Origin: Physcomitrium patens
Taxonomy: Eukaryota > Streptophyta > Bryopsida > Funariales > Funariaceae
Reading direction: 5' to 3'
DNA: 64,000 nucleotides
Assembly (NCBI RefSeq): GCF_000002425.4
Contig: NC_037260.1
Coordinates: 8,340,730-8,404,729, forward strand
The notes under the pieces are model-generated. The model made no database searches. It saw only the letters and a program-made list of their open reading frames with translations, and was not told the origin of the DNA. Both the position numbers and the translations under genes were made by a program. Below, in pieces: positions 4,790 to 39,008 of this stretch (position 1 is its first letter; every line of letters starts with the position of its first letter).

Positions 4790-5275
4790 AACTAAAATAA
4801 ACTCCTACTAGTTGGAAGTCTAATCTAGTTTATAACAATCTAATTAATTAAATGTTCTAATAATATTCTATTAGCATTTGATTTTTGTCCAATAAATCCT
4901 ATAACCTTCTAATTGTGAGCTAAAATAAATCATTCTAACAAGAAATTTATTTAAAGTCACAATTGCTAATTAACTTTTAAATTAATTACCTAAATGCTAT
5001 TGCTTAATTTTTTTCTTAAAACATTTAAGCTTTTTAAATAATTAAATGGTAGTCTCACATTACAACACTACAAAGCAACCAACAAAAAATACTACGAAAA
5101 CACATCCTCTTTGAAAGGAATTTTTATATGATTTTTATGATTTAATATAATTTTTTATTTCTATTGAATTGTCTAGTAATAAAAACTCATCTAAGATTAT
5201 CATCCAAGACAAATTCTCATCCACAAATGAATTTCTCATCTGCAAATGTGAATTCATCCACTTAAACCAATTTCC
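4790..5275 (-). repeat. Dispersed AT-rich repeat D, copy 2
   Basis: Plus-strand text AGTTGGAAGTCTAATCTAG near 4813 is the reverse complement of a block also present at 22,330 and 40,690. The far end (5165-5270) is a run of CATCC/TCATC words, the complement of the GGATGA run at 21,800-21,900. It abuts a GC-rich island, as does the copy at 21,790. Confidence 0.5.
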
Positions 5276-7864: not shown

Positions 7865-10767
7865 TATACCGTTTGCGACGCATTGGTAAGATTTTCAGCT
7901 GGCTCCCATGTTCACTCATTAATGTCCTAGCCGCACCAATGAATAAGATACTCCAACTTACCCCACCTTCGCCATGAATCTAGCACCTTTTTAACCTCGT
8001 ATTCTTCATGGTTCTCGATCTCAATACTAGGTGGTGGACATTGCACTCTTCCAGAAAAAGACGACTCTCGATAAGGCTCCAACAGAGAAACATGAAAGAC
8101 TGGATGTATCTTCATAGAAGCCGATAATTCCAGACAGTACGCCACTGGATTGATTTGCTTCTAGATGATAAATGGTCCAAATCTTCGATAGTCCAACTTA
8201 TCACATGGTCGCTTGGTCTTGATATTCCATCAAAGAAGCCATGCTTTATCTCCAATTTTGAAAGTAGGTGCTTGATTCTGAAATCTATCTGTAGACGCCT
8301 TGTAGGATTCTTGAGCGGATTGTAATTGAAGCTTCAACATATTTTGAAGCTCTGATAGTTGTTTCACAAATCCTTCAGTTGCTGGATTGTTGTTTGTTGA
8401 TGGACTCAATAAATCAAGCTTCGGATGATACCTATAGTTGGAAAAGAATGGTGTGTATTGAGTCGACGCATAGAGGGTGTTGTTATATGCAAACTCGGCT
8501 AGCGACAGATATGTGGTCCAATCATCTTGCTAATAGTTGATGCTGCATCATAAGTATTGTTCCAAGACTTGGTTCTCCCGTTCCATTTGGGCGTCAATTT
8601 GAGGATGAAAAGTCGAAGAAAGCTTGATATCCACATTCAATATCTCAAAGAGAGATCTCCAAAACTTTGATACGAATTGGGTTCCTCGATCTGATACGAT
8701 ATCATCTGGTAGTCCATGATATCGATACACATTATTGAGAAAGAGCCTTGATGTGACTTCACTAGACGATGTCTTCTTGCAAGGGACAAAGTGCGCCATC
8801 TTTGTAAGCCAATCTACCACGACAAAAATGCTGTCAAATGAGTTCGATGATGGCAGGTCCGTGATGAAGTCCATGGAAACTGAAGACCATGGTCGACGTA
8901 AAATCGGCAATGGCTGTATGAGTCCATAAGGGCGATGCCGAGGATTCTTGGATCTTGAACAGATGTCGCAGGAGAGGACAAAATCTTTCACATCCTTCCA
9001 CATTTGGGGCCACCAAAAATCTCGAGAAATAAGCTCCAAGGTCTTGTTGAATCCAAAATGTCCCACAGTTGAAAAATCGTGGTGAGATTGAAGAACTTGG
9101 AGTCGTGCTGGTCCTTTTGGGATATACAATCGCTTCTCAAAGTATAAAAGATCTCCCTCCACCTTGAACTTGTCGTCATTGGTACTATGCTTAATATCAA
9201 TGGCTACTGAATCTTCAATGGTCACGGCACGTACTTGATTCAGGAAGTCAGCATCAATTGGCATAATAGTAGCACAAAGCTGAAATTGCTCTGGCTACAA
9301 CAATGTTGTATATTGTTGATTAAACGCTGCTTCTCCAGCCTTTGGTACAAGATACGATCTCCTCGATAAGGCATCAGATAGTTCTTGCTGCTTTCTAAGT
9401 CGATAAGTGATAACAAAATCGAACCTAGATAGCAATATACTCCATCGAGCTTGACGTCGATTTAGAACTCGAGCCAACATGAAATACTCCAAATTCTTAT
9501 GATCTGTGTATACGGTCACTGGGTGTGCAGCTCCTTCAAAAAAGTAACGCCATTCTTGGAAAGAATCCACTATAGGAAGAAGTTCCTTATCGTGGATCTC
9601 ATAATTGATTTCAGCAGCAGAGAACTTTCGTGAATAGAATGCAACCGGATGGAGCTTCTTGTCTTCTCCCATTTGTGAAAGTACAGCTCCCAAAGCAAAA
9701 TCCGAAGCATCAGTTTCCAAATAAAAGGCCTTTGTAAAGTCTGGATGTACCAAGATTGGAGCCGTAATAAATGCGGTCTTCAGGTCTTGAAATACCTTCT
9801 CCGCTAGAGGTCTCCATTCCAGCTTATCCTTGCATGTCAATCGAGTGAGAGGAGCAACAACTTGAGAGTAATTCTTGATGAAGATCTGATAGAAGTTGGC
9901 AAAACCAAGAAAGCATTGTACGTCTCTAACCGTCTTCAGAACCTCCGAGGACACAATTGCTTCCACCTTCTTGGGGTCCATCTTCAAGCCTTCCGTAGTC
10001 ACAAAGAATCCCAGAAACTCCATCTCTATTTGGTGAAATAAATCGTCAAGGTGCTCTCGGAAAATGTCATTCATCATATGTTGAAAGACCGTTGGAGCAT
10101 TGATAAGACCAAAGGGCATGACATTATACTCAAAATGGCCATACCTTGTACGGAACGCTGTCTTCCACTCATTTCCTTCCTTAATTCGTACGAGGTTGTA
10201 AGCTCCCCTTAGATCAATTTTTGTAAAGATCCTTGCACGTCCAAGTTGTTCTAAGAGACCAAAAATCAAGAGTAACGGATAACGATTCTTCTTTGTTACC
10301 TTGTTGAGGCCTCGATAGTCCACGCACATCTGCAACGAGCCATCTTTCTTCTTCACAAATAAGATAGGTACTCCAGTTGATGATTTTAAATGATGGATGA
10401 AGTTCTTGGCTAGATTCTCGTCAATGTACCTTTGTAATTCTACCAACTCCGTCTGCGATAGATTGTAGATTGGGCCAAAAGGCGGTTGTGCTCCTTCTCG
10501 CAAGTCTATGGTGCAATCATATGGTCAGTGTTCCGGTAGCATGTCGACATTCTTCTTTTGAAACACGTCTTTAAAATCCTTATATTGCTCAGGTATACTT
10601 GCTATCGAGATCTTCTCCTCGGTAGTTGGAGCCGCATAAATGACAAACGGTGTGCCTTCCTTGGATGATCTTGTAAACGCTCTTGCTCCAATGAATAAAG
10701 ATTTTTCTATTCGGGGTTTTCTACTAGGCTTGTTCTTGAGTGGTATTGTGGAAAAGGTCATCTTCAC
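7865..10767 (-). pseudogene. E2 pol: reverse transcriptase, RNase H, integrase, chromodomain
   Basis: The order is normal. Reverse transcriptase and RNase H occupy 9295-10,503; integrase 8548-9264 holds the HHCC region and [10 protein letters not shown] decayed stretch leads to a chromodomain-like end near 7927-8145 (LEYLIHWCG). At about 10,060-10,020 the RT frame jumps from FREHLDD straight to LFHQIEMEFLG: compared with E1 this in-frame deletion of roughly 43 residues removes the YLDD catalytic box. Upstream, the protease with its DSGA site is missing between the gag knuckle and about 10,767. Single in-frame stops also separate RNase H from integrase (near 9292) and interrupt the C-terminal part. 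Confidence 0.85.
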
Positions 10768-11687: not shown

Positions 11688-11731
11688 TCTAAGAGAAGGA
11701 CAGAAATGATTCTACAAGAAGACAATATCGA

Positions 11732-11761
11732 TTTAGAGGAGGGTACTCCGCAACCTCTAAA
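11732..11761 (-). ncRNA. E2 leader RNA hairpin, second copy
   Basis: The arms TTTAGAGG and CCTCTAAA form 8 pairs around a 14-base loop. It lies just upstream of gag and duplicates the hairpin at 11,846. The loop has one change relative to that copy (GGAGTACCC for GGATTACCC in sense orientation), while both arms are unchanged. Confidence 0.55.
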
Positions 11762-11845
11762 ATGCCTTAAGAGCTTCAAGAAAAGGGGTAATCCACTCTC
11801 TCCAAGAAGAATAAGACTTCAATATTGTAACAAAGGAAGTATCAG

Positions 11846-11875
11846 TTTAGAGGAGGGTAATCCGCAACCTCTAAA
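11846..11875 (-). ncRNA. E2 leader RNA hairpin, first copy
   Basis: The arms TTTAGAGG and CCTCTAAA pair perfectly around a 14-base loop containing GGATTACCC. The same loop with a partly different but still pairing stem lies in the leaders of E1 (18,700-18,727) and E3 (38,346-38,373). Confidence 0.6.
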
Positions 11876-11954
11876 ATGCTAATACACTTCCTTGCAAAGG
11901 GATAATCCACATTCTAACGAGGAAGAAACTAGCTCTGATATCTGAGGTGAGTGA

Positions 11955-11965
11955 AGTCTCGACAA
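11955..11965 (-). promoter_or_regulatory. E2 candidate self-priming site
   Basis: In minus (sense) orientation the 11 bases TTGTCGAGACT start 2 bases after the 5' LTR. They are perfectly complementary to AGTCTCGACAA inside the LTR (plus 12,095-12,105), which lies 31-32 bases downstream of the TATA position. Pairing stops on both sides, giving exactly 11 pairs. A tRNA-Met-like motif ATATCAGAGC lies farther inside at 11,932-11,941. Confidence 0.75.
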
Positions 11966-11967
11966 AC

Positions 11968-12264
11968 TGTCACAGACACAGAAATATAGGCTCGAGATCT
12001 AACAAGAAGTTCAAGAAGAACTGGCAAGAACTAGATTAATCAGATGAATATAAGAACAACACTAGAGAGGTGAGCTAGAACTCCAAGAGATATGTTGTCG
12101 AGACTGAAGAACTCTTCAGCCTCGATTCCAATATGTACTCCTATTTAGGAAGCTTCTCAAGCAACTTCTACTAACTAAGAAGCTTCTAGAAGGTTCCAGA
12201 GACTTGCTTCTAGAAGATTCTAAAAACTTGTCTCTAGAAGGTTCTAAGCACTATGTCCCTAACA
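11968..12264 (-). repeat. E2 5' LTR
   Basis: Right-hand copy of the 297-base LTR, with TG...CA termini. The TATA box of this copy is weakened (TACATATT in sense) compared with the left copy. Confidence 0.9.
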
Positions 12265-13008
12265 GTCCCTTTAGTTGACACTTAAAGCAAGTCATGCTAG
12301 ATGCGCTTGCTTTTATCTTCTTCAGACTACTCCCTTGGCTTTCTTTTGCCTTAGGCTTGAAGAATTGAGGGCTTATGTCTTCAAACCTTCTTTTTAAAAA
12401 TGAAAGAGGTTGCTTGTTGCTGTAGAAGGATTTAGCTCTCTTCTAGAAACTAGGTTTAACTTCCCAAGTTCTAATCTAGGTGCTTACTTTGCCATAATTA
12501 ATCCCTTGTATTTGATTTTCAATTGTGATGCTAAGAAAAAAGCATTGCTAATGTTGGTGGAAATAGTCTCTTTTTCTAATACTTCTTCCTAGTTGCTATA
12601 TAGTAGAAAAAAAATAACAAGCACTTCTCATAATGCAATTGAGTATAGGCTATTTGATTCTAGAAGTTTCCAATATACTTAAAGAACAAGGTTTTCCTTG
12701 CTTCTTGCACAACCTTGAGCAACTACAATCTTTCTATGAAGTTTTTGCCACTTGCTCTCAAATCTCCTAATAAATCTATCACATACTTTGTTCTAAGTGG
12801 TTTTTTAGGCAAAGTTAGAATTAGAATTGATTTTTCTATCAAACCAATCTAATACACTTTTTTCAAGTAGATCAAATAGAATTTTAATCCTTTCTATATC
12901 ACTTTCGATATCATTTGCCAAGTGCCAATGCTCAATCTCTTTGAGAAACCTTCTCGTGGTTCTCTTGTGCTCCATACCTTGCCACTTCTTGGGTTGGTCA
13001 ATTTTAGC
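12265..13008 (-). pseudogene. E0 gag fragment, central piece
   Basis: This minus-strand capsid remnant includes KIDQPKKWQGMEHKRTTRRF, LDWFDRK, FIRRFESKWQKL and, at the left end, the knuckle start CFKCQLKG. Two stops interrupt it. At its right edge (13,004-13,008, TTAGC) E1 has inserted; at its left edge E2 has inserted. Reading across both insertions keeps the frame, which shows E0 was one gag gene before the insertions. The family is retroelement gag; a more exact class is not clear. Confidence 0.65.
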
Positions 13009-13548
13009 TGTCAAGGACAAGAACTCGATGAAAGCTAAAGAGTAAGTGAGACTTTTCTCAAAAAGAAATAGGACAAAATAGAAATATGTATATTAAGAAA
13101 GAAACTGGAATGGCTATTGCCAAAATACAAGAAAACTAGAGACCCTTGAAACTAGACTAGAAGCAAGAAAGGAGTTGACAAGAGTGAAGAGGGCTTCACT
13201 CTTGCCTCTATATATACTATCTAACTAGAAGCCACGTGGCGATGTTCTATAAGACCTCCAATATATGTTGACTTTCTAGGCCACATGCCTTTGCTTGCAA
13301 GGCAAGTTTTCTATGGATGGACCACGTAGTTAGCTTGTTCTTTAAGCTTCCAACATGTGTGGCACATGGCTAACTTGTTGACCAAGTTTCTAACCTAAAA
13401 GTCAACTATAGACTCCTATAAAGTCAAAGCAGCGTCTATGAAGCTTCTAAGAAGCTTCTCTAGAAGATATTACACAATTAACCTACTTTTATCTACTTTT
13501 ATATACTTTTATCTATTCATATAGGTAATTATATGTATGTCCGTGACA
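13009..13548 (-). repeat. E1 3' LTR
   Basis: Plus-strand termini are TGTCAAGG and CCGTGACA. The polypurine tract (sense AAGGGGGGG, 13,552-13,560) lies 3 bases inside. The predicted RNA-start segment is at 13,175-13,185 and the TATA box at 13,209-13,216. Confidence 0.95.
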
Positions 13549-13589
13549 TTACCCCCCCTTCTAGGGACGAGTTCCACGAGGAGCGGTGA

Positions 13590-14012
13590 TTATATATTGA
13601 GAAAATCTAATATGCGGCGAATTATATTTGCTACATACTCTGATCTTTGTTCTCTTCGAAGATAGTTGATGGGTCCTCTTAGCCATCGATAGTGTCCCAT
13701 TCCAGGGCGAGAAGACCACCCTGTTATTTGATCACTGTTGAGGCCTTCATAACTTCCTTCAAATAATATATTTGAAACACCATCAGGAGTCGTTCCTATC
13801 TCCAATAATATCACCAAACATCGAGAATCTCTTCCAAGGTCGTGATACCAAACACGTTGTATCTCACCATCTATTCGAGGAAGAACATGTCGTTCTTGAG
13901 GGTCTTCATCTCGGTTGCGTCGTCTTGAAGGTTGTGACAATCGCAATGTCTCATCCGGTAAGTCAGCAAACGAAGGTTCTTGAGTTGAATCCGTTGGTTG
14001 TTGGCTCTCCAT
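13590..14012 (-). CDS. E1 third ORF, conserved protein of unknown function
   Basis: This intact 140-residue frame begins with ATG at 14,012, 95 bases after the pol stop, and ends 41 bases before the 3' LTR, in the slot where some Ty3 elements carry env-like genes. The N-terminal third is polar (many Ser, Gln, Pro, Arg and acidic residues). The C-terminal two thirds look folded, with IQRVWYHDLGRDSRCLVILL, FEGSYEGLNSDQITGW and GHYRWLRGPINYL. I see no signal peptide or membrane segment, so it is unlikely to be an envelope. E3 (34,330-34,520) and E2 (7640-7795) hold remnants with the same amino-acid core, so it belongs to the element family and is not a chance frame. Its function is unknown. Confidence 0.8.
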   Translation of the reverse strand: MESQQPTDSTQEPSFADLPDETLRLSQPSRRRNRDEDPQERHVLPRIDGEIQRVWYHDLGRDSRCLVILLEIGTTPDGVSNILFEGSYEGLNSDQITGWSSRPGMGHYRWLRGPINYLRREQRSEYVANIIRRILDFLNI

Positions 14013-14107: not shown

Positions 14108-17100
14108 TCATCTTGGTTTTGATGGATGTCGTTGATGAAAAACTTTGACTTTAGCTGATGCATTTGCTAGATTCCTGGATGGCTCCCAAGTGCGCTCACT
14201 AATATCATATCCGCACCAATGAACAAGATATTCCAGCTTATTTCGGCGCCGCCTTGAGTCTAATATCTCTTCCACCTCAAATTCTTCATTATTATCTACT
14301 TCTATAGGAGGCGGTGGCATTTGTCTTCTTCCTTGTATATCCACTGCCTTATATGGTTCAAGAAGAGACACGTGGAATACAGGATGGATCTTCATTGACT
14401 CCGGTAGATGTAACCGATATGCAACTGGGTTGATCTGTTCAGAAACAGAAAAGGGGCCAAGCCTACGATAGTCCAATTTGTCACAAGGTCGAGTGGTCTT
14501 GATATTGCGACAAAGTAGCCATACCTTATCACCCACGTTGAGTTGTGGTTGCTCTTTACGATATACATCTGCATTTATCTTTTGTCGTTCTTGAGCTTTC
14601 TTCAACTGCGCCTTCATTATTGCATGTAACTCTGACAACCGATTTGCCATATCTTCTGCTGCAGGATTATCAACTTTTGAAAAATCAAAAGTATCAAGTC
14701 GTGGATGATAGCCATAATTGGCAAAGAAAGGTGTTTGTTGCGTGGAGGAATGTACCGTATTATTATAAGCAAACTCTGCCAATGGCAGAAGGTTTGTCCA
14801 ATCATCTTGTTGGTAGTTGATGGTACACCTTAAATACTGTTCCAAGACTTGGTTTACGCGCTCTGTTTGTCCATCAGTTTGAGGATGGAAAGCTGAAGAT
14901 AGCTTTATGTCCACTTTTAAAATCTTGAAAAGAGTCCTCCAGAATCTCGACACAAATTGAGTTCCCCTATCCGATATGATATCTTTAGGTAATCCATGAT
15001 AGCGATAGATATTATCAATGAAAAGCTTAGCTGTTTCTTCACCTGTGATAGATTTTGTACATGGCATAAAATGTGCCATCTTGGTGAAACGATCTACTAT
15101 CACAAATATAGAATCATAAGATCTTGAATTTGGAAGATCTGTGATGAAATCCATAGAAACAGAAAACCATGGTTGTTCTGGTATAGGTAATGGCTGAAGA
15201 AGTCCGTAAGGTCGATGTCGAGGAATTTTTGATCTTGAACAAATATCACATGATTGTACAAAGTCTTTGACTGACTTCCACATTTGTGGCCACCAAAAAT
15301 CTCTTGATATGAGTTCTAGAGTCTTATTATATCCAAAGTGCCCTGCTGCTGGAAAGTCATGACGTGCTTGAAGAACACGCAAACGTGCTTTTCCTTCTGG
15401 AACATATAGGCGTCCTTCAAAATATAATAGATTATTCTTGAACTCGAACTTAGAAGAATCATGAGACTTGGAAGAATTATTCTCGATATCATGAACAAGA
15501 GGGTCTGAGGACATACTGGACTGGATTTGCTTGAGAAAAGTTGAATCAACAGTCAATGTTGATTTCACTGCTCGGAGATGAAATTGCTCCGGTTTCAAGA
15601 GGACCGTTCTTTGTTGCTCAAAAGCTGCATCTCCTTCTTTTGGTGCAAAATAAGAACGTCTAGACAGGGCATCGGACAAACCTTGTTGTTTTCCTGGCCG
15701 ATAAGTGATAATGAAGTCGAATCTTGACAAAGACATACTCCAACGAGCTTGACGACGATTCAACACGCGTGCTGACATGAAATACTCGAGGTTCTTGTGA
15801 TCTGTATACACAGTGACTGGACTAGAAGCACCTTCTAAATAATGACGCCATTCTTGAAAGGAATCCACGATTGCAAGAAGTTCTTTATCGTGGATCTCAT
15901 AATTGATCTCGGCTGCTGAGAATTTTTTTGAATGAAAAGCTATCGGATGAAGTTTGTCATCTGTTCCCATTTGTGATAAAACTGCACCCAAGGCAAAATC
16001 CGATGCGTCTGTTTCCATAAAAAATACCTTGGAAAAGTCAACACTATATAAGACTGGTGCAGAGACAAACGATGTCTTCAAGGCTTCAAATGCTGCTTCC
16101 GCTTCTTGATTCCATTGGAATTTATCTTTACTAGTCAAGCGTGTAAGTGGAGCTGCAACTCGTGAGAAATCTTTGATGAAGATCCGATAGTAATTGGCAA
16201 ATCCCAAGAAACATTGGACATCTCTTACAGTCTTTGGAATCTTCCAATCCATGATTGTTTGGACTTTCTTAGAATCCATCATAAGACCATCATTTGAAAT
16301 GATGTATCCTAAAAAGTCAACTTGAGTAGTGTGAAATACACACTTTTCCATCTTGGCGTACAATCTTGCATCTCTGAGTTTTTGTAATACTTGACGAACA
16401 TGTATTTCATGTTCTTCAACATTCTTAGAATAAATCAGGATATCGTCTAGGTAGCAGACGACAAAATTGTCTAAGAATTCACGAAATACATCATTCATGA
16501 GATGTTGAAAAGCAGCTGGTGCATTCGTGAGTCCAAAAGGCATGACATTATATTCAAAATGCCCGTACCTGGTTCGAAACGCAGTCTTCCATTCATCTCC
16601 TTCTTTGATCCGTACTAGATTATATGCTCCTCTTAGATCTATTTTTGTATAGATCTTAGCTTGATTTAACTGGTCAAGGAGTCCTGATATCAAAGGTAAT
16701 GGATACCTGTTCTTGATTGTGATCTTGTTGAGTCCTCGATAGTCAACACACATTCGTAAAGATCCATCTTTTTTCTTTACGAATAAAATTGGAGCTCCTG
16801 CTGGAGATTTTGAATGGCGTATGAAATTCTTTGCTAAATTCTCGTCAATATATGTCTTGAGTTCAGCCAACTCATCTTACGATAAACTGTAAATTGGTCC
16901 AAATGGTGGCAGAGTTCATTCCTTGAGATCGATTGAACAATCGTATGGGCGATGCTCAGGAAGAATATCTGCATTCTTTTTCTCAAAAACGTCTTGATAA
17001 TCCTGATATTGACTTGGAATGCCACTTGAAGTCTTTACGCTTTCAGAAATAGGTGCAGCATAAATAGCAAAAGTTGATCCTTCTTTTGCTGCGTGTATAA

Positions 17101-17692
17101 ATGCTTTTGCACCTATAAGTGCGGGTTTTACTATACTAGACTCATGGTTTTTTACTTGATTAATAGAACTGTTACTAATGCTCTGAGGAAAATCAAGTTT
17201 ACGAGAAATCCAATCTATTCGAGGATTATACTTTTCTAACCATGATAAGCCTAAAATAACTGGATTAGAGGGAGATCTAATTATATTAAAAATTACGCAA
17301 CTACTATGACCATTTATTACTACATCTACAGGAAGTGTTTCGTGAGTTACATCTCCAGAAGACAACGGACGACCATCTATGACTTCTACGTGTACAGGTT
17401 TAGTTTTTTGTATTAATGATATTCTATGACATCTAGCAAATTCTTCATCTAAAAAACAAGATGAGGCTCCTGAATCTACCAAGGCAGAGGCTTTGTAATT
17501 ATTAGGTCCTAAACGCACATCTATTATAAAACAAGGAGATGGTTCTGAGGAGAGGATAGGACCTTCATTAGAAGTTGTACAAGATTCCAGCCGCACGGTC
17601 CCTATTGTAGCTGGACGTACTCGTTTTCCGACATACTGTCTTCTTTGATAGCCGTACTCCTCATTTTGTAGTTGCATCGCTTCTTTGGACAA
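14108..17692 (-). pseudogene. E1 pol polyprotein with two in-frame stops
   Basis: The first part (17,692-16,916) carries the protease: ALVDSGASSCFLDEEFA gives the catalytic DSGA, followed by ILGLSWLEKY. A TGA (16,916-16,918) and a TAA (16,871-16,873) interrupt the same frame 45 bases apart. The main part (16,870-14,108, 920 residues) holds reverse transcriptase (YLDD at about residues 140-143), RNase H ([15 protein letters not shown]), integrase (HHCC around HFGYNK...CDIC, then D, D, E in [18 protein letters not shown] and [13 protein letters not shown]), and a C-terminal chromodomain ([19 protein letters not shown]). Relative to gag it lies in the -1 frame, with about 100 bases of overlap. 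Whether the stops are read through or kill the copy is open. Confidence 0.93.
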
Positions 17693-18609
17693 TGTTGAGC
17701 AGTGTGCTTAGGTTCTCCACAATATAAGCACAATCCTTCTTGGCGACGACGAGACTTTTCTTGCTCAGTAAGAGGTTTGAAACGTACCGCATCAATTTGC
17801 ATATCCTCTACTTCTGAAGGTATGTGTTGAGGAGACGTCGGTATTGCCATTGAATTGTAGTAACATTGAGGCCCACTTGTGCGACTCTCAGATCGAAATT
17901 CAAAAAGTCGATTGTCGCACTTCACAGCAAAGTCAATTGCTTGACTCAATGTTTGAGGATCAGGTAAATTAAGCATCAATTTCTTTACCTCATATTGTAA
18001 TCCGTAGAGAAATTGACTCACAAGTGCGGCATCATCCCACTTGATATCAGTTGCAAGTTGTCGAAATTGCGAAGCATATAATGTTACTGATCGATTGCCT
18101 TGTCGCAAAATACGGATCTTGTTGGTTGCAACACGAATTGCATCATGTTCTCCAAACATGGATCGAAACTCCGCCAAAAAAGCCTCCAGATTATCCAATA
18201 TTGGATCTCGTCGTTCAAGAAAAGATGAAAACCATGACAATGCTGAACCTGAAAGAAGTGTACCAATGAATCTAACTTGTGACCCTGGAGTTGGATAGCT
18301 CTGGGGTTGAAGTTCAATCACTAGTTGGACCTGATTGATGAATCCTCGAAACTTGGATCTGGTACCATCAAACTTCTCGGGCAAGGCAACTCTCGGTTCT
18401 CTAACACTCGAAGGGTGTTCCATTCTGGGAGAAGGGACATGGTTTGGTGCAGATGTTGAAGCAGCCCCAATCATCTCTATATCTTCACTTCCTACCATTC
18501 TTGTTGCTCCTTGTGGTGGTAAATTGAGTTGATGCATCGCAAGCATTAACTCCCTCAATTGTTCTTGCATTTGTGCCATTGCACTCTTCATTTCAACAAG
18601 CTCTGCCAT
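17602..18609 (-). CDS. E1 gag (capsid/nucleocapsid)
   Basis: This 335-residue intact frame starts at ATG 18,609. The capsid region includes LPEKFDGTRSKFRGFINQVQ, LLSGSALSWFSSFLE and FGEHDAIRVATNKI, all typical of Ty3/gypsy retrotransposon gag. The nucleocapsid knuckle CLYCGEPKHTAQHC (CX2CX4HX4C) lies near the C-terminus. The end overlaps the protease frame by about 100 bases, so Gag-Pol would need a -1 shift or reinitiation. I saw no canonical slippery heptamer in the overlap, only an A4 run in TACAAAATG. Confidence 0.93.
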   Translation of the reverse strand: MAELVEMKSAMAQMQEQLRELMLAMHQLNLPPQGATRMVGSEDIEMIGAASTSAPNHVPSPRMEHPSSVREPRVALPEKFDGTRSKFRGFINQVQLVIELQPQSYPTPGSQVRFIGTLLSGSALSWFSSFLERRDPILDNLEAFLAEFRSMFGEHDAIRVATNKIRILRQGNRSVTLYASQFRQLATDIKWDDAALVSQFLYGLQYEVKKLMLNLPDPQTLSQAIDFAVKCDNRLFEFRSESRTSGPQCYYNSMAIPTSPQHIPSEVEDMQIDAVRFKPLTEQEKSRRRQEGLCLYCGEPKHTAQHCPKKRCNYKMRSTAIKEDSMSENEYVQLQ

Positions 18610-18699
18610 AGTAGCACTTAGAAAAGAGAAGATGTCTAATAACGCTCAAAATAGAAGAGAGGAATTGATAACAAAGAAAATACTAAGAACAATATCAGT

Positions 18700-18727
18700 T
18701 TAAAAGAGGGTAATCCGCAACTTCTAA
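18700..18727 (-). ncRNA. E1 leader RNA hairpin
   Basis: In sense orientation the arms TTAGAAG and CTTTTAA give 7 pairs, one of them G-U, around a 14-base loop with GGATTACCC. E2 has the same loop with stem TTTAGAGG/CCTCTAAA: the second pair from the loop changes from G-C to A-U and the fourth from G-C to G-U. That pattern suggests a conserved RNA structure, perhaps for packaging or priming. Confidence 0.6.
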
Positions 18728-18785
18728 TGCGCTTATGTCTTATCAAGAAAAAGGGGTAATCCACTCTTAATCAAGAAAAGACAAA

Positions 18786-18795
18786 GCTCTGATAT
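18786..18795 (-). other. tRNA-Met primer-site-like motif, displaced
   Basis: The sense sequence ATATCAGAGC matches most of the plant primer site TGGTATCAGAGC but lies 22 bases from the LTR, too far for normal priming. The same motif is 26 bases away in E2 and 22 in E3. It may be a relic of tRNA priming. Confidence 0.5.
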
Positions 18796-18804
18796 TGTAA
18801 GTGT

Positions 18805-18815
18805 ACTCTTGTCAA
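18805..18815 (-). promoter_or_regulatory. E1 candidate self-priming site
   Basis: In sense orientation TTGACAAGAGT starts 2 bases after the 5' LTR and is perfectly complementary to ACTCTTGTCAA within the LTR (plus 18,984-18,994). Pairing fails on both sides, so it is exactly 11 pairs. The LTR segment lies 31 bases downstream of the TATA box at 19,018-19,025, so it would form the first 11 bases of the RNA. In Tf1 of fission yeast the first 11 mRNA bases pair with the primer site in this manner. Confidence 0.8.
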
Positions 18816-18817
18816 TC

Positions 18818-19357
18818 TGTCAAGGACAAGAACTCGATGAAAGCTAAAGAGTAAGTGAGACTTTTCTCAAAAAGAAATAGGACAAAATAGAAATATGTAT
18901 ATTAAGAAAGAAACTGGAATGGCTATTGCCAAAATACAAGAAAACTAGAGACCCTTGAAACTAGACTAGAAGCAAGAAAGGAGTTGACAAGAGTGAAGAG
19001 GGCTTCACTCTTGCCTCTATATATACTATCTAACTAGAAGCCACGTGGCGATGTTCTATAAGACCTCCAATATATGTTGACTTTCTAGGCCACATGCCTT
19101 TGCTTGCAAGGCAAGTTTTCTATGGATGGACCACGTAGTTAGCTTGTTCTTTAAGCTTCCAACATGTGTGGCACATGGCTAACTTGTTGACCAAGTTTCT
19201 AACCTAAAAGTCAACTATAGACTCCTATAAAGTCAAAGCAGCGTCTATGAAGCTTCTAAGAAGCTTCTCTAGAAGATATTACACAATTAACCTACTTTTA
19301 TCTACTTTTATATACTTTTATCTATTCATATAGGTAATTATATGTATGTCCGTGACA
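18818..19357 (-). repeat. E1 5' LTR
   Basis: 540 bases, read as identical to the left copy. By the TATA position, U3 is about 363 bases (19,357-18,995) and R-U5 about 177 (18,994-18,818). Confidence 0.95.
19018..19025 (-). promoter_or_regulatory. E1 LTR TATA box
   Basis: TATATATA in sense orientation; its first T is 31 bases upstream of 18,994, the predicted RNA start. E3 (31 bases) and the left LTR of E2 (32 bases) show the same spacing. Confidence 0.75.
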
Positions 19358-19362
19358 TTAGC

Positions 19363-33338: not shown

Positions 33339-33742
33339 TTATTTATAATTTATAATTTATAAACTCAATTTTAATTTAATTTAATTTATTAATTTATTTA
33401 TATATTTATTTATATATATATAAATAATAACAACAATAATTTATTGATTTATTTAATGTATAAAAGTTATTATATACATAGAAGATTGAAAAAATAAAAT
33501 AAAATAAAAGTAGAAGTGGAAGCAAAATAAAAGTAAAAATGGAAGTAAGAGTGAAGTAAAAAATAAAAATAGAAATAAAAGTAAAAGTAAAGAATAAATT
33601 AAAATTAAATTAAAATTAAAAGTTGGAAGTTAAATATTAAATTAAAGTTAAGTCAAAATTTGGAAGGTGAAGGATAAAAAGAAAAAAAAATAAACAAAAC
33701 AAAACAAAACAAAATAAACATAGAAAGAACTAACCTTAACCA
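33201..33742. repeat. Low-complexity AT-rich tract with (TTA)n
   Basis: A (TTA)n run at 33,308-33,338 is followed by TATATA stretches and a purine-rich AAATAAAAGTAAAA-type tract up to the left LTR of E3. No gene is seen. Confidence 0.75.
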
Positions 33743-34289
33743 TGTATCAAGAACACAAACTAGAAAAAGATGTATAAAGTCATGGAATTTGTATCAAAAA
33801 AAAAGTAACAAAATAGAAGAAAGTGTGTATATTCAAGGAAGAACTGAAATGGCTATTGCCAAATATTAGAAAACATAAGTCTCTTGAAACTAGACTAAAA
33901 ACCAAGAAAAGAATTGACAAGAGTAAATAAGGCCTCACTCTTACCTCTATATATATTACTTAACTAAGAAATATGTAGCGACATGCTATATGACCTCTAA
34001 TATGCGTCCAACTTGCAAGACATATGTCTAATTTGTAAAACAAGTTTCCTAGGTATGCGCCATATGTCCAACTTGTATTACAAGTGGTCAACATGTCGAC
34101 ACATGGCTTCTTTGTTGGCCAAGTTTTCAATCCACCAATCACCTATAGACATGTATATAGGCAAAGCAACATCTAAGAAGCTTTTAGGAAGCTTTCTACA
34201 AGATATTATCATATTTATCTACTTTGACTTACTTCTACCTATTCTTATTATCTAGATAATTATTAGGATAAATATGTATGTCTGTGACA
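33743..34289 (-). repeat. E3 3' LTR
   Basis: It is homologous to the E1 LTR at lower identity. The polypurine tract (sense AAGGGGGAG) lies just inside. The predicted RNA-start segment is at 33,914-33,924. Confidence 0.85.
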
Positions 34290-38373: not shown

Positions 38374-38450
38374 TATGCTTATGTCTTGTCAAGAGAAAGA
38401 GATAATCCACTCGTAATCAAGAAAAGACAAAGCTCTGATATTGTATGTGC

Positions 38451-38461
38451 ACTCTTATCAA
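38451..38461 (-). promoter_or_regulatory. E3 candidate self-priming site
   Basis: Sense TTGATAAGAGT begins 2 bases after the 5' LTR. It pairs with ACTCTTGTCAA in the LTR (plus 38,633-38,643) at 11 positions if one G-U is allowed. The TATA box starts 31 bases upstream of 38,643. Confidence 0.65.
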
Positions 38462-38463
38462 TC

Positions 38464-39008
38464 TGTCAAAGATACAAACTAGAAGAAGATGCATAAAGTC
38501 ATGGAATGTGTGTCAAAAAAAAAGTAACAAAATAGAAGAAAGTGTGTATATTTAAGGAAGAATTGAAATGGCTATTGCCAAATATTAGAAAACATAAGAC
38601 TCTTGAAACTAGACTAAAAACTAAGAAAAGAGTTGACAAGAGTAAAGAAGGCCTCACTCTTACCTCTATATATATTACTTAACTAAGAAATATGTGGCAA
38701 CATGCTATAAGACCTCTAATACGCATCCAACTTGTAGAACACATGTCTAATTTGCAAGACAAGTTTCCTAGGTATGCACCATATGTCCAACTTGTATTAC
38801 AAGTGGTCAACATATCGATATGTGGCCTTCTTGTTGGCAAAGTTTTCAACCTACCAATCACCTATAGACATGTATAAAGGCAAAGTAGCATCTATGAAGC
38901 TTCTAGAAAGCTTTCCACAAGATATTAACATATTTATCTAATTTGACTTACTTCTACATACTCTTATTATTTAGATAATTATTAGGATAAATATGTATGT
39001 CCATGATA
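38464..39008 (-). repeat. E3 5' LTR
   Basis: Right-hand copy, starting TGTCAAAG on the plus strand and ending TGATA, a decayed form of TGACA. Confidence 0.85.

Follow-up and report, generated by a model that had tools for sequence, protein, structure and literature searches.

The window, meaning the whole 64-kb stretch of DNA that was analysed, contains three related elements (E1, E2 and E3), all on one strand (minus), to which the features of the three elements given below belong. E1 is bounded by a 5' LTR of 540 nt (18818..19357; TGTCAC...TTGACA) and a 3' LTR of the same sequence (13009..13548), with no differences between the two across 544 aligned bases, and by reading it is flanked on both sides by GCTAA (19358-19362 and 13004-13008). 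As the LTRs are identical and GCTAA is present at both flanks, the insertion of E1 is recent. A purine-rich tract (13549..13562), also recognised by reading, precedes the 3' LTR. Domain matches identified a gag reading frame (Retrotrans_gag; 17602..18645) and a frame encoding reverse transcriptase (RT), RNase H, integrase, SH3_Tf2-1 and a chromodomain (14108..16876), and a protease frame that ends in a stop codon occupies 16916..17707. The pol of E1 is split by two in-frame stops (16916-16918 and 16877-16879) located between protease and RT, and a protein 99% identical to that of E1 (P0001) reads through both of these positions. The chromodomain was detected as a Chromo domain match, and reading by eye against HP1 placed F, W and Y at what we take to be the aromatic cage positions. 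Between pol and the 3' LTR lies a further open frame (140 codons; 13590-14012), which gave no Pfam match, and the leaders of E1 and E3 (18686-18768 and 11719-11915) contain repeated units with GGATTACCC / GGATTATCC motifs.

The LTRs of E2 lie at about 38464-39007 and 33735-34288, and those of E3 at 12264-11968 and 7589-7293. Transitions make up 41 of the 51 substitutions between the E2 LTRs, as expected of old, methylated DNA, and decay is also seen at the LTR ends. Comparison of the E3 and E1 LTRs gave no blastn match over 60 bp. Three further pairs of repeats in the window (28312-28745/32273-32685, 42139-42345/47227-47430 and 19830-20030/30130-30335) could be aligned, and by reading none of them is an LTR pair of the E1 kind.

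In a tree of 32 pol rows, made by a quick method without bootstrap and lacking named rows for Tf1, sushi and Tcn1 as well as any classified plant chromovirus, E1 was placed in the same clade as a chytrid row (97) and then with frog and fish rows (84). Its pol is thereby grouped with fungal and vertebrate rows, apart from the small number of rows that seed plants contributed; rows from Tanacetum and Closterium are found on the other side, where two of the relatives described below (L004 and L005) were also placed. The window also contains a host gene for a phosphodiesterase, whose best-scoring named matches were in Ceratodon (58% over 88%), Diphasiastrum (59% over 88%) and Physcomitrium (64% over 78%). 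When 30 of the 120 listed matches were put in a tree, it belonged to a 9-row clade that lay, at a weakly supported fork (73), on the side of mosses and liverworts. A second host gene, AP3 beta, had 11 matches. On the best reading, E1 belongs to the Ty3/gypsy elements with a chromodomain and is of the Tf1/sushi-Tcn1 type, and its host is probably a non-seed land plant, which we take to be bryophyte-like.

An 11-nt complement next to the 5' LTR of E1

The original prediction held that 11 bases within the LTR of E1 are perfectly complementary to a site that starts 2 bases after the 5' LTR. Inspection of the sense strand bore this out: the putative self-primer ACTCTTGTCAA (18984..18994), predicted to form the 5'-terminal 11 nt of the RNA, pairs without a mismatch to a putative primer-binding site (PBS), TTGACAAGAGT (18805..18815), which begins 2 nt past the LTR end at 18818. 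Pairing had also been said to stop on both sides, and the complement is indeed exactly 11 nt long, because the next bases at either end fail to pair. A TATA box, TATATATA (19018..19025), is present in the 5' LTR, and counting from its first T gives the claimed spacing of 31 nt to position 18994; the prediction of an RNA start at 18994 derives from this TATA box only. The chance of finding such an 11-mer, as estimated from base composition, is about 2 x 10−4 anywhere in the E1 LTR and about 2 x 10−6 at one of the six sites from TATA+29 to TATA+34, and when the E1 LTR was subjected to mononucleotide shuffling, 12 of 20,000 shuffles held a 10-nt match.

This arrangement resembles that of Tf1 from Schizosaccharomyces pombe, the first 11 RNA nucleotides of which are described as pairing with a PBS close to the 5' LTR, with a cut between bases 11 and 12 (PMC7175516), and the same layout is described for Tj1 (PMC4600332) and Tosmo (PMC10085805). 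E1 shares with Tf1, as also with Tf2, Tj1, Tosmo and sushi, an RNA 5' end, predicted in the case of E1, that is complementary to a PBS by the 5' LTR (in E1, over 11 nt at an offset of 2), and its pol is, like that of Tf1, of the chromovirus polymerase type. It differs in that its host is a plant, and the likeness to Tf1 is drawn from the published description of that element.

Matched changes among related elements

Covariation between the two 11-base segments in other family members had been proposed as a check, and it was found within the window. In E2 the self-primer is again ACTCTTGTCAA (38633..38643), and it pairs with the PBS TTGATAAGAGT (38451..38461) at 11/11 positions, one of them a G-U. 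The self-primer of E3, AGTCTCGACAA (12095..12105), differs from that of E1 at three positions and all three partners have changed to match, so that its PBS TTGTCGAGACT (11955..11965), also located 2 nt past the LTR, is a perfect complement of exactly 11 nt. The TATA sequence of E3 is TACATATT in the 5' LTR and TATATATT in the 3' LTR.

A search of contigs filed as bacterial genomes yielded seven related loci (L001-L007), and a search of viral contigs for such loci gave none that was confirmed. By reading, three of the seven (L001, L002 and L005) show both an LTR and the segment that follows it; the remaining four (L003, L004, L006 and L007) do not show both and were left out of the priming count. 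As no contig shows two LTR copies, LTR ends in the three informative loci were inferred from CA and, in L001, from likeness to E3. Each of these loci has a complement of 10-13 nt starting 1-2 nt past the inferred LTR end. L001, whose pol is 77% identical, carries the letters of E3 with 12 nt paired, and TATATATA is found 32 nt before its primer. The more distant L005 (44% identical; candidate self-priming region at 4845-4965) has a 10-nt complement 2 nt past the inferred LTR end and TATATATA 33 nt upstream. In L002 (49% identical) the complement extends up to 13 nt, and no TATA was found within 45 nt.

Across E1, E2, E3 and L001, standard pairs were observed in 44 of 44 cells of the primer:PBS alignment, with a change on both sides in 3 of the 11 pairs, and sliding the partner by 1-3 columns as a control lowered pairing to 32-41%. 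The observed pairing and covariation score were reached by 2 of 500 column shuffles, and two further measures, which count pairs or types, by 278 and 373 of 500. The four elements do not amount to four independent tests, because there is one main contrast between them (E1/E2 versus E3/L001). Judged from these sequences, the primer:PBS complementarity is not a product of chance, and E3 repeats the layout with different letters. During plus-strand synthesis a retroelement could copy its primer into a new PBS; if so, covariation would follow automatically and would point to self-priming rather than to compensating mutations that arose separately.

In predicted folds, the probability of the primer:PBS pairs was at least 0.9 at most positions in E1, E2, L001 and L002. 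The minimum-energy fold of E3 lacked the duplex and its pair probabilities were 0.4-0.7, and in L005 the probability was at most 0.1. In addition to the central duplex, the three-duplex 'pretzel' RNA described for Tf1 has extra duplexes (PMC10085805). The elements of the window may differ from Tf1 in this respect: the central duplex was found, and flanking duplexes in E1, E2, E3 and L001 did not rise above shuffles (8 tests, lowest fraction 0.12). The corresponding shuffle fractions were 0.29 and 0.08 in L002, and 0.53 upstream in L005. Downstream, the LTR of L005 forms a very strong duplex with the stretch beyond the PBS (0 of 300 shuffles).

Probable self-priming and alternative primers

With the sequences, positions, covariation and polymerase grouping observed here, Tf1-like self-priming, as put forward in the original prediction, is by far the best explanation for E1 and is very probably correct; it gains support from the recurrence of the layout with matched changes in the divergent E3 and from the placement of the polymerase with fungal and vertebrate rows. 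By analogy with Tf1, the E1 RNA would begin at 18994, and its first 11 nt would fold back onto the site 2 nt past the 5' LTR. The element's own RNase H would then cut after nucleotide 11, and the freed 3' end of the 11-mer would prime minus-strand DNA, with no tRNA borrowed from the cell.

Self-priming in E1 is well supported, but it is not the first of its kind. The suspicion that it had gone unreported for plant chromoviruses proved wrong, as Neumann et al. (2019; PMC6317226) predict it for the majority of plant chromoviruses of the Tcn1 clade, which they place in mosses and club-mosses only. The same source identified tRNA-Met in most chromoviruses and, among plant chromovirus groups, self-priming in Tcn1 only. 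Self-priming has also been proposed for Tcn1 of Cryptococcus (PMC7175516), and in SM-Tcn1 of Selaginella self-priming and tRNA priming alike were reported as not found (Novikova et al. 2010; PMC2864245). E1 resembles the plant Tcn1 clade and Cryptococcus Tcn1 in being a chromovirus with a Tf1/sushi-type pol; for the plant clade, the text available from PMC6317226 presents self-priming as a prediction only, and the text available from these sources makes no mention of a U3/R hairpin. The present data thus add covariation evidence in a plant group for which prediction (PMC6317226) and one negative case from Selaginella (PMC2864245) are on record. The seed-plant chromoviruses Tekay, Reina, CRM and Galadriel are, like E1, plant chromodomain Ty3/gypsy elements, and they differ in that tRNA-Met is the primer reported for most chromoviruses (PMC6317226), whereas the PBS of E1 has no TGG start.

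TGG was sought 0-5 nt past the LTR in E1, E2, E3 and L001 and was absent, the letters following the LTR being GATTGAC, GATTGAT, GTTTGTC and GTTTGTC, respectively. A motif that could point to a tRNA primer lies further in: TATCAGAGC follows the complement at a distance of 10 nt in E1 (18786-18794) and E2 (38432-38440) and of 14 nt in E3 (11932-11940), and it resembles the inner portion of the PBS for plant tRNA-iMet, minus its TGG. Were this the working PBS for initiator tRNA-Met, the 11-nt complement would be incidental. The three letters preceding TATCAGAGC are not TGG in E1, E2 or E3, though, and it is TGG that should pair with the terminal CCA of the tRNA, so that without it the 3' end of a tRNA at this place could not be extended. 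Besides, TATCAGAGC lies 23 nt past the LTR in E1, L001 lacks it and yet keeps the complement, and tRNA priming would leave the primer:PBS covariation unexplained. Priming through TATCAGAGC was consequently rejected, for the missing TGG and the absence of the site from L001, and we regard it as very unlikely; the motif is possibly a relic of tRNA priming.

A further reading, compatible with self-priming, is that the family primes itself, or once did, and that this copy of E1 is a dead relic. The two stop codons between protease and RT would fit such a relic. Against it, the LTRs are identical, so the insertion was recent; E1 keeps intact RNA signals, which could be served in trans; and P0001 is an example of a nearly identical protein free of the stops of E1. 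On balance, we consider it somewhat unlikely that E1 is dead.

A hairpin at the U3/R border

The self-primer of E1 overlaps a potential hairpin (18986..19015) whose arms, 19015-19003 and 18998-18986, form 13 bp including one G-U around a 4-nt loop, and whose 3' arm contains 9 of the 11 primer nucleotides. Hairpins of 12-13 bp over the predicted start, burying most of the primer sequence, are present in E1, E2, E3 and L001. The primer is known in six elements, and in five of them (E1, E2, E3, L001 and L005, not L002) it is overlapped by the 36-nt window of greatest stability; for L001, L002 and L005 the ranking covered only what the contig contains of the LTR, or a stretch trimmed at a start that we chose. 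Counting E1/E2 and E3/L001 as one lineage each, such overlap in 3 of 4 lineages has a chance probability of about 0.004, in a test framed after the pattern had been seen. The RNA z-scores of the hairpin were -4.5 in E1, -5.5 in E3 and -4.7 in L001, and weak in E2 (-1.6) and L005 (-1.4), where the primer is mostly within the loop; L002 has no such hairpin (RNA z +1.9).

Covariation was also apparent here. In an alignment of six LTR rows, pairing was seen in 96.2% of the 78 cells and two-sided change in 3 of the 13 pairs; slid controls gave 41-51% pairing. The pairing and score were reached by none of 500 shuffles, and the two counting measures by 226 and 474 of 500. Primer and U3 arm have changed together, with three two-sided changes (E1/E2 versus E3/L001), and these joint changes cannot be explained by copying of the primer into the PBS. 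The energies calculated for the hairpin and the primer:PBS duplex were, respectively, -19.7 and -14.4 kcal/mol in E1, -12.6 and -12.5 in E2, -19.3 and -16.2 in E3, -22.7 and -16.2 in L001, and -13.7 and -13.0 in L005.

The strong inverted repeat across the predicted start in E1, E3 and L001 also raises the possibility of a palindromic promoter element acting as DNA, since DNA folding scores (z -4.3, -4.6 and -4.1, respectively; -0.5 in E2) are nearly as extreme as those of RNA. As an account of the primer:PBS complementarity, which would then be a by-product of this element with a chance match next to the LTR, it is extremely unlikely, given that a promoter palindrome needs no complement about 180 nt off, placed 2 nt past the LTR and tracking the primer at 3/3 positions changed in E3 and L001. 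For the hairpin itself, a promoter palindrome is the main alternative, with the same DNA folding scores in its favour. Pol II promoters near polyadenylation signals are reported often to involve a hairpin (PMC3601003).

A role as RNA may be envisaged if Tf1-like self-priming operates. The genomic RNA would bear the primer sequence twice, with the U3 arm accompanying the 3' copy only. If the start is set by the TATA box, the RNA 5' end would lack the U3 arm, which would still precede the 3' copy. The hairpin could then hide the 3' copy, locking it in a structure no weaker than the primer:PBS duplex, and the 5' copy, beginning inside the hairpin 3' arm, would be free to prime. Such a switch for copy selection is a speculative model of the hairpin, and we think it unlikely to be right. 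If true, it would explain how an element that primes itself keeps the wrong copy of its primer from being used, which becomes a testable question with these sequences. A literature search on the hairpin and on compensatory changes found no report of a U3/R hairpin in the text available from the sources, and the hairpin at this border may be new.

Among the loci left out of the priming count, L006, assigned to a cyanobacterial bin, contains what reads as the 3' LTR of a more distant chromovirus (7891-8529), its PBS falling beyond the contig. This LTR has a 9-bp hairpin (z -3.4) that begins 23 nt downstream of the first base of TATATAA and ranks only as the third-best window in the LTR.
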